Source: Anaerocolumna sedimenticola (GTDB taxonomy: Bacteria; Bacillota; Clostridia; Lachnospirales; Lachnospiraceae). Taken from it: DNA of 64,000 nt. Positions 45,156 through 48,026 of the stretch are shown here, one piece after another; within the stretch, counting starts at the first letter, position 1, and each line of letters begins with the position of its first letter. A program made the position numbers and the translations under genes. The notes beneath the pieces were generated by a model that was not told the DNA's origin, searched no databases, and saw only the letters and a program-made list of their open reading frames with translations. The stretch spans positions 3,241,501 to 3,305,500 of the forward strand of contig NZ_CP048000.1 of the NCBI RefSeq assembly GCF_009931695.1, given 5' to 3'.

Positions 45156-45193
45156 TTATGGGAGATGTGTATTTAGAGGAAGTGAGGATTTAT

Positions 45194-46611
45194 ATGCAGA
45201 AATACTATTTAGCAGTAGATATTGGTGCATCAAGCGGCAGACACATTTTAGGCTGCCTTACAGATGACAAAATTACCTTGGAAGAAGTTTACCGTTTTGA
45301 AAATGGTATGGTAAAAAAAGACGGAAATTTGTGCTGGGAACTGGACAGACTTTTTGAAGAAATCAAAAATGGTTTGAAAAAATGTAAAGAGATTGGTAAA
45401 ATTCCGACCAGCATGGGTATTGATACCTGGGCGGTGGATTTTGTATTACTGGATTCCAAGGATCAGATTCTTGGTAATACGGTAGGGTACCGTGACAGAA
45501 GAACTACAGGTATGGACACTTTAGTTTATAATAAGATTGCCGAAGATGAATTATATAACAGGACAGGTATACAGAAACAGATCTTTAATACCATATATCA
45601 ATTAATGGCAGTTAAAACACAAAATCCCGATCACATGGAAAAAGCAGAGAGCTTCTTAATGGTACCGGATTATTTTAATTATTTATTAACCGGGAATAAA
45701 CGGAATGAATATACCAATGCAACAACGACTCAACTTGTGAGTCCGGTAACGAAAGACTGGGATGATGAATTAATAAATCAACTGGGATTTAACAGAAAGA
45801 TGTTCTGTGAGATTTCTCTCCCTAAAACCGTGGTGGGTAAATTCTCAGATCAGGTAAAGGAAGAAGTCGGATTTGACTGTGAGGTAATTCTGCCGGCTAC
45901 TCACGATACTGGATCTGCCGTATTATCCGTTCCGGCTAATGATGATGATTACTTCTATATCAGTTCAGGAACCTGGTCATTAATGGGTATTGAAAGAACG
46001 GAGGCAGATTGCAGCCAGGTAAGCAAAATGGCAAACTTTACTAATGAAGGCGGATATGATTATCGTTTCCGTTATCTTAAAAATATCATGGGATTATGGA
46101 TGATACAGTCTGTCAGACATGAATTAAACGATGCTTATTCCTTTGCAAAGTTATGTGAACTGGCAATGGAAGCAGACGATTTTACATCCAGAGTTGATGT
46201 AAATGCAGACTGCTTCCTATCTCCGGATAATATGACAGAAGCAATAAAGAAGTATTGCAGGGATACCAATCAGAAAGAGCCTGCTACGGTGGGAGAGCTT
46301 GCTGCCTGTATCTATCATAGTTTAGCCAAAAGTTACGCGGATACTGTGGATGAAATTGAAAAGATAACCGGAAGAACATATTCCAGAATTCATATCGTAG
46401 GCGGCGGATCCAACGCGGATTATTTAAATGAACTGACTGCAAACTATACAAAAAAGCCGTATATGCCGGCCCAACAGAGGCAACGGCGATTGGTAACATA
46501 CTAGCGCAAATGTTGAAAGCAGATGAATACAAAACTTTAGAGGATGCAAGAACAGGTGTATTCAATTCTTTCCCAATTAAAGAATTTAAAGGCTATTGCG
46601 AAACTATATAG
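45194..46611 (+). CDS. rhaB: L-rhamnulokinase, frameshifted in this sequence and with a replaced C-terminus
   Basis: A FGGY-family kinase phosphorylating L-rhamnulose to rhamnulose-1-phosphate. The N-terminal ATPase motif YYLAVDIGASSGRHILG, SMGIDTWAVDFVLLD, SSGTWSLMGIE and IVGGGSNADYLNELTA fit RhaB. The frame stops early at 46504 because the A run near 46449-46454 has six bases. With seven it reads KKAVYAGPTEATAIGNILAQML and runs on to 46611. The last six residues (GYCETI) come from an inserted element at 46591-46738; the ancestral end was FPIKEFK plus TAA. ATG 45194 is chosen over 45158 because of its ribosome site. Confidence 0.92.
46576..46590 (+). repeat. Left flanking direct repeat of the MITE-like element
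   Basis: ATTAAAGAATTTAAA, identical to 46739-46753. This copy lies in the rhaB coding frame (IKEFK). Confidence 0.85.
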
Positions 46612-46738
46612 TTTTCTGAATATACCATACAATTAATACGAATTTCATAGCTTCAGTTACCTTTCAGGCAAGATTCAGCTCTGAAATTGTATTATTTGCA
46701 TGGTATATAGATGCAATAAGCTAGTTTCGCAATTGCCT
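46591..46738. mobile_element. MITE-like 148-bp palindromic insertion between rhaB and rhaA
   Basis: Terminal inverted repeats GGCTATTGCGAAACTA / TAGTTTCGCAATTGCC (one mismatch) bound a body that folds into one near-perfect hairpin (ATACCAT/ATGGTAT, TAATAC/GTATTA, ATTTCA/TGAAAT, AGCT/AGCT). It is flanked by 15-bp direct repeats. No reading frame. Removing it with one repeat restores rhaB ...KEFK-TAA and places an AAAAAGGAG site 8 bp before rhaA. Confidence 0.8.
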
Positions 46739-46753
46739 ATTAAAGAATTTAAA
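46739..46753 (+). repeat. Right flanking direct repeat of the MITE-like element
   Basis: ATTAAAGAATTTAAA, followed directly by TAA, the presumed original rhaB stop codon. Confidence 0.85.
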
Positions 46754-46772
46754 TAAAAAGGAGAATAAAACA

Positions 46773-48026
46773 ATGACAACAAAACAAAGATATGAATCAG
46801 CAAGAGAAATCTATAAAAATATCGGTGTGGATACCGATGAAGTGTTAAACCGTTTAAAAAATGTGGCTATCTCCATGCACTGCTGGCAAGGGGATGACGT
46901 GGCAGGTTTTGAAGGCGACGGACAGTTATCCGGCGGTATCCAGGCTACCGGTAATTATCCGGGTAAAGCCAGAAACCCGGAAGAATTAATGGCAGATATT
47001 GATAAAGCACTTAGTCTTATTCCAGGTACACATAGAATTAACCTTCATGCTAATTATGCAATCTTTGCACCTGGTGAAGAAGTAGATCGTGACAAATTAG
47101 AACCGAAGCATTTTACAAAATGGGTAGAATTTGCAAAAGCAAGAGGTCTTGGTTTGGATTTTAATCCTACTTATTTTTCTCATCCAAAGGCTGACGGATT
47201 AACTTTGTCCAGCGAAGATGAGTCCATCAGAAAATTCTGGATAAACCACGGAAAAGCATGCCTTAGAATTTCCGAATATTTCGCAAAAGAATTAAACAAA
47301 CCTTGTTTAATGAACATCTGGATTCCGGACGGATTTAAAGATATTCCGGCTGACCGTATGAGTCCAAGAGCCAGATTAAAAGATTCCTTAGATCAGATCT
47401 TATCTATTGGTTATGATAGAAACCTTGTAAATGTTGCAGTTGAATCCAAAGTATTTGGTATCGGTGTGGAAGCATGCACAGTCGGTTCCCACGAATTCTA
47501 CATGAATTATGCGGCAAAGAATAACATTCTCTGCTTATTAGATAACGGACATTATCATCCAACGGAAGTGGTTTCCGATAAAATACCATCCATGCTTCTT
47601 TTCTCAGACAAACTTGCCCTTCATGTTACAAGACCGATCAGATGGGATAGTGACCATGTGGTTTTATTTGATGATGAATTAAAAGAAATTGCAAAAGAAA
47701 TCGTAAGATGTGATGCCCTTGACAGAGTATTAATCGGATTAGATTACTTTGACGCAAGTATTAACCGAGTATCTGCCTGGGTAGTGGGTATGAGAAATAT
47801 GCAGAAAGCTCTTTTATATGCAATGCTTTCTCCAAGCAAAAAACTTGCAGATTTACAGAATGGCAGAAATTATACGGAACTTATGATGTTCCAGGAAGAA
47901 CTTAAATTCTATCCTTTTGGCGATGTATGGAATTATTTCTGCGAATTAAATCATGTTCCTGAAAAAGAAGATTGGTTTAAGACCATAAAAGAATATGAAT
48001 CAGATATTTTAGCTAAGAGAAGCTAA
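46773..48026 (+). CDS. rhaA: L-rhamnose isomerase
   Basis: It isomerises L-rhamnose to L-rhamnulose, with Mn2+ in a TIM barrel. The 417 residues include [60 protein letters not shown] and the [11 protein letters not shown] metal region, all typical of RhaA. It follows rhaB in the same operon with the inserted element between them, and ends at a good terminator. Confidence 0.97.

Follow-up and report, generated by a model that had tools for sequence, protein, structure and literature searches.

MITEs and a partner insertion sequence group of Lachnospiraceae that probably insert at a fixed offset from Shine-Dalgarno motifs

To our knowledge, the bacterial transposons that reach many sites do so through loose targets or through structures such as terminators. 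Tn7 has its recognition site beside the insertion point, at a fixed offset and orientation, and leaves the gene intact, and it uses one chromosomal site and several proteins; mobile cassettes of the IS4/IS231 type make duplications of 10-12 bp. MITEs linked to the IS1182 family are already known: MITEPye1 of Paracoccus yeei is flanked by 4-bp repeats (PMC11578231), ISMac2-related MITEs have duplications of 4 or 0 bp (PMC3852290) and IS1272, a Staphylococcus member of the IS1182 family, is described as replacing stem-loops (PMC5678879). No report of insertion anchored on a Shine-Dalgarno (SD) motif was recognised in the literature searched (largely openly accessible papers), and the target rule set out below was not found described there. 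The locus that led to it lies in a 64-kb stretch of the Anaerocolumna sedimenticola genome (64,000 nt of contig NZ_CP048000.1), which is called the window here; all positions are positions in it.

The insert between rhaB and rhaA

An earlier note on the window had described a MITE-like insertion with identical 15-bp direct repeats between rhaB (rhamnulokinase, 45158-46504 as assembled, + strand) and rhaA (L-rhamnose isomerase, 46773-48026, + strand), both genes being named by reading. The literal repeats are present (ATTAAAGAATTTAAA, at 46576-46590 and, after a gap of 148 bp, at 46739-46753), but once the TAGG...CCTA end consensus of the other copies is applied the target duplication is TTAAAGAATTTAA, of 12-13 bp, its left copy at 46577-46589 falling inside the literal repeat 46576-46590 and its right copy at 46740-46752, and the remaining matches up to 15 bp are read as coincidence. 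The gap thus holds a MITE of about 150 bp (46590-46739, AGGC...GCCTA) with inverted ends and a target duplication, in which the first T of the usual TAGG end is missing; in a decayed copy in the relative G007 the left junction reads GAATTTAATAG. The ends GGCTATTGCGAAACTA and GGCAATTGCGAAACTA are inverted repeats with one mismatch, and the terminal inverted repeats occupy 46590-46606 (AGGCTATTGCGAAACTA, + strand) and 46722-46738 (- strand, AGGCAATTGCGAAACTA being the sequence of the reverse strand). The folded MITE strand has a predicted energy of -54 kcal/mol (z -8.3, with 0 of 200 shuffles as good), in agreement with the long RNA hairpin that had been placed between rhaB and rhaA. The 60-nt hairpin arms are just 73% complementary, so the description “near-perfect” is true of the MITE ends and untrue of the body.

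By its insertion at rhaBA the MITE has separated rhaB from the rhaA ribosome site by a hairpin and has given the rhaB frame a new stop. The rhaA SD sequence (AAAAGGAG, 46756-46763, + strand), the inferred target landmark, begins 18 nt past the CCT border of the element and the ATG lies 35 nt past it. As assembled, the rhaB ORF has a frameshift at the poly-A run 46450-46455 and stops at 46504; the frame is open at that position in five relatives (G007, G010, G001, G008 and G012), and the frameshift could reflect either a mutation or faulty assembly. The tail GYCETI, which was said to have been added to rhamnulokinase, is indeed a new end of the original rhaB frame, closed by a TAG within the MITE (46609-46611, + strand), but owing to the frameshift it is absent from the ORF encoded in the window, and this protein extension may possibly not be produced in the source strain.

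RhaA is present in 10 of the 15 genomes of the genus (own genome included), and the rhaB-rhaA junction was examined in eight of the nine relatives, G004 being fragmentary there. In the closest relative, G007 (95% RhaA identity), a decayed version of this insert occupies the identical site, and rhaB has an in-frame tail KEFNRNCKTI-stop. In G010 (93% RhaA identity) the site is empty and rhaB ends exactly in IKEFK-stop, bearing out the proposed reconstruction of the empty site as KEFK-TAA, and the sites of G001 and G008 are empty too (rhaB ending in IKKFNR-stop and IKKFKA-stop respectively). No insert of this kind was visible at the junction in the more distant G012, G014, G011 and G009. The simplest reading would be a single insertion in the common ancestor of the source genome (G000) and G007. 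By eye, the rhaB-rhaA spacer of G010 instead holds serial A-rich units like AAAAAGAATTATCAAAAAGT.

The stable hairpin between the two genes would also suit a conserved, non-mobile regulatory leader (attenuator) of rhaA, and a leader conserved in all relatives had been foreseen as the competing outcome, but the empty sites of G010, G001 and G008 refute it, with the insert decayed in G007 and hundreds of termini elsewhere in the genome also speaking against it. The only Rfam match in 46300-47000 was below its cut-off and inside rhaA, and the reading as an RNA element was dropped on this result and on the empty sites, leaving the attenuator with practically no chance of being correct.

A high-copy MITE family and the insertion sequences that share its ends

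Further copies of the 148-bp sequence, without any of which the earlier note would have given up the insertion, are abundant in the own 5.50-Mb genome: all 40 candidates scored (of 219) matched at 86-100% identity, and the MITE terminus, allowing at most one mismatch, occurs 278 times compared to 3 for a reversed control pattern, showing that the insertion belongs to a real, high-copy family. The terminus search took in 145 genomes, own included. Among the 14 same-genus relatives nine had 2 to 94 terminus matches (those with 2 or 3 being marginal), one had a single one-mismatch match and four had none, while two other genera had 61 and 41. MITE bodies diverge more than the ends, as a 151-bp query matched five of eight termini-rich genomes and found nothing in the other three (G008, G024 and G030), and no plasmid in a plasmid collection was matched by the MITE.

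From 75 loci of the own genome 71 elements were cut out, of which 63 were 142-151 bp long, five were 50-74 bp and three were 240-415 bp (possibly with mispaired ends). As is characteristic of MITEs, these are short sequences with terminal inverted repeats and without a transposase ORF, and their numerous copies are scattered over unrelated places and flanked by target duplications. A clear duplication was seen in 33 of the 71 (38 being without one), compared to 5 of 2000 mismatched flank pairs, and its commonest aligned length was 12 (16 of 33). Even shorter elements with the same ends (60-74 bp) were noticed at the own-genome loci L067, L219, L230 and L235.

Insertion sequences (ISs) of about 1.75 kb (range about 1.62-1.81 kb) with MITE-matching ends occur in Lachnospiraceae, and the transposase with matching ends that had been called for was found in three other genera (G041, G060 and G021) and in G024. 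In the first three of these genomes, MITE-type termini adjoin pieces of one transposase and the ISs were recognised via the termini; that of G024 was recognised via the protein, its transposase copy spanning two overlapping frames. The IS ends are TAGGCGTTTGCGAAACGCC (left) and TAGGTAATTGCGAAAC (right). The MITE termini equal the right end, both MITE ends being right-like, and the similarity of MITE and IS is mostly confined to the ends (the best alignments span 19-29 nt, apart from a single one that reaches 48 nt at 77%). The consensus of the IS left end has two small near-palindromes (GGCGTTTGCGAAACGCC and CCGCATAAATACGG) and then a T-rich run, an arrangement which is terminator-like and might shield the transposase from outside transcription.

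A search with the transposase protein matched 8 of 20 chosen genomes, some of them weakly. In the own genome there is an N-terminal transposase relic (59% identity over 90 residues) and the C-terminal part found no match. This result and the sparse similarity outside the ends speak against mobilisation of the own MITE copies in trans by an IS of this group, a role that we infer from the shared ends. A scan of species genomes gave 138 transposase relatives, and among the best 80, which were kept, the titles were mostly of Lachnospiraceae and further Clostridia, besides one MAG titled Bacteroidales and one titled Bacillus; 58 of 397 sampled genomes of the family had a transposase match, distant matches included. 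One plasmid record labels this transposase “hypothetical protein”. The single DDE_Tnp_1 IS of the own genome was rejected as a partner (in a test for an IS4/IS231-type cassette, confined to the own genome) because its ends are unrelated. Terminus pairs 2.2, 9.8 and 10.4 kb apart were rejected since they enclose ordinary genes and seem to be the termini of distinct short elements, the enclosed genes being flagellar, transport and glutamate-synthase genes by reading of the translations. Casposon, IS1202 and IS231 origins, raised by the duplication length, were dropped once the transposase was found.

For the IS set, 114 loci (some giving the same place twice) yielded 78 elements with paired ends, from which 8 cut or masked elements and 8 duplicates were excluded to leave 62. 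An ORF of at least 450 aa was found in 51 of the 62, and a clear duplication in 38 (24 being without one) compared to 3 of 2000 controls; strict lengths were 9 (1 case), 10 (5), 11 (17), 12 (9) and 13 (3), with a mode of 11, and three duplications were not measurable by the strict-length convention. Five IS copies of Mediterraneibacter massiliensis, at five places, differ by 0-4 of 1728 bp, and near-identical copies at different places suggest that this IS probably moved recently.

The transposase is about 485 aa long, and the four intact proteins all score above cut-off for DUF772 and below cut-off for DDE_Tnp_1, which was exceeded in one partial protein. Their best NCBIfam match is IS1182 (NF033551), at 53-72 bits, which does not reach the curated cut-off of 270. 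D147, D284 and E423 are invariant in six transposases and are taken by us to be candidate DDE residues. The partner would thus be a DUF772/DDE transposase that is distantly IS1182-like. A conserved Cys cluster (C329 to C387, L117 numbering) is a candidate for the putative reading head for the target motif; an AlphaFold2 model from six sequences had a pLDDT of 37.7 and was left out of interpretation.

The Shine-Dalgarno motif at the target sites

One fixed set of SD motifs was used, scored where the motif starts 13-24 nt outside the element end. By this measure the motif was present at 56 of 71 own MITEs (15 without) and 56 of 61 ISs (5 without), and also at 20 of 24 same-genus MITEs (4 without), a set fetched after the rule had been noted (30 loci giving 26 elements, 24 of them with enough flank; some of these insertions are possibly shared by descent). 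At other distances it was found 0-3 times per 6-nt bin, and at the same distance on the opposite strand at most once. Of the 61 ISs, 51 had the motif on the side of the left (transposase-start) end and 5 on that of the right end. The core of the motif is placed more tightly, beginning about 18-19 nt out (s.d. 1.9), than the start codon (s.d. 2.3 and 2.8). For the distance from the border to an SD-preceded start codon, 49 of the 71 MITEs gave 26-37 nt and 39 of the 62 ISs gave 24-36 nt. The interval 38-60 nt was empty in both sets, and the first such start was at 69-133 nt in five MITE and five IS cases. The complement of the 16S rRNA 3' end also contains the motif, and a check of the examined elements turned up no insertion beside that end.

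Taken together, the insertion position is fixed relative to an SD motif that starts about 17-20 nt outside the element, in ISs on the side of the left end. We propose, with a probability of about 0.8, that this Lachnospiraceae IS group and its MITEs insert in this way by a reading of the motif as DNA. In this model the motif, of which GAAAGGAG is the best form, would be recognised in double-stranded DNA by the transposase, and the left end would be joined on the 5' side of the motif with a staggered cut at a fixed offset, so that the AT-rich stretch between cut and motif would be duplicated. The ribosome-binding site and the gene would be left intact by such an insertion, and most insertions would therefore be tolerated.

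Random insertion, with selection retaining the copies that fall in harmless gaps just before genes, would agree with the placing of the 32 own copies for which long flanks were available, of which 29 are not within an ORF of at least 100 aa (many being about 30 nt from one), and selection may well act. As the sole cause it is very unlikely, as positions 38-60 nt away should be equally tolerable and yet are empty, and it leaves unexplained the bias to the left end (51 versus 5), the enrichment of GAAAGGAG and the absence of the pattern in canonical IS1182 elements, both of which are described below.

The exact 8-mer GAAAGGAG was found at 34 of 56 IS target sites compared to 3 of 75 SD sites of host genes from these loci (Fisher P 2.6e-13). 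For the own MITEs the figures are 20 of 56 sites compared to 0 of 31 genes of the window (P 3.8e-5). Same-genus MITE sites show the exact 8-mer less strongly (4 of 21), though the general motif holds there. No ORF of 20 codons was seen at normal spacing from 14 of 51 left-end motif sites, where decayed genes are possible. It could be argued that what is targeted is the machinery of translation or transcription (a 30S complex, a paused polymerase or an R-loop at the leader) and not a DNA motif, given that most targets coincide with gene starts and that the SD and start positions are both tight. We consider this unlikely, because GAAAGGAG is over-represented relative to the ordinary SD sites of neighbouring genes and because of the 14 sites without an ORF, and from these counts we infer that the transposase reads the motif as DNA rather than as a translation signal. 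The window contains the 8-mer three times, never ahead of a start codon followed by 60 open codons; a reading of DNA alone would require some other cause, for example selection inside genes, to make insertions at non-start copies of this kind rarer.

In the ISs themselves (L082-L161) the ribosome site of the transposase, about 120 nt from the left end, is often GAAAGGAG as well: in 22 of 51 the 8-mer lies no more than 26 nt from the called ORF start, and 40 of the 62 ISs contain it once. This may point to self-recognition or autoregulation. In the own genome a MITE and the IS relic (L028, 1427-1513, and L075, 1264-1352) follow leaders that are 89% identical and sit at the same position behind them, which might suggest that one duplicated target was struck twice.

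A second IS group has a transposase with 26% identity over 141 aa to the first, which scores 61 bits against the NCBIfam IS1182 model, and has different ends (...CTCGGAAT). From 43 loci 15 distinct elements with both ends were obtained, and in 12 of these 15 the motif starts 15-18 nt from the TCTCGG block of the left end, while none has it at the right end; eight of the 15 are those in which the pattern was first seen, and among the seven others six have it. In canonical IS1182 elements, which score above the cut-off, the motif was found 7-24 nt out in 2 of 18, this set being drawn from 30 loci of a phylum-wide sample (8 dropped for ends too weak and 4 for lack of an ORF) with automatically found inverted ends, some of them weak. 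It is thus likely, though less firmly held than the rule for the first group, that at least two deeply divergent IS1182-like groups use the SD sequence, read as DNA, as a dispersed address, inserting at a constant distance of 15-20 nt with the transposase-start end towards the motif. Many gene leaders would then serve as safe sites, and the MITEs of one group would in this way have come to occupy some 100 sites in one genome, a figure extrapolated from the 56 of 71 examined and the 278 termini.

Comparison with known systems

If true, an SD address would explain how a high copy number is reached while genes are spared, and it predicts a systematic rewriting of 5' leaders in Lachnospiraceae. 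End and target rules are gained for annotating these ISs, and the system might be developed into a means of placing cargo ahead of ribosome sites in the genomes of gut bacteria. The suspicion that the mobilising system is unfamiliar was right as regards the target rule and the duplications, which are mostly of 10-13 bp, but ISs with matching ends do exist and are distantly IS1182-like.

The MITEs of the IS1182 family resemble those described here in being intergenic, with IS-like ends and hairpins, and the partner transposase here has DUF772 and IS1182 as its best NCBIfam match, but the duplications, mostly of 10-13 bp, differ from those of MITEPye1 (4 bp) and of the ISMac2 MITEs (4 or 0 bp). 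The partner IS itself stands apart from the IS1182 family in its score (53-72 bits against a cut-off of 270) and in its SD-anchored targets (56 of 61 compared to 2 of 18 canonical elements). IS1272 likewise has a structured target within the wider IS1182 family, but it is described as replacing stem-loops, whereas here an AT-rich stretch, mostly of 10-13 bp, beside an SD motif is duplicated. As in the site selection of Tn7, the recognised site would lie beside the insertion point, at a fixed offset and orientation, and the gene would be spared; unlike Tn7, the address would be a short motif present at many places and read, as far as seen, by a single transposase.
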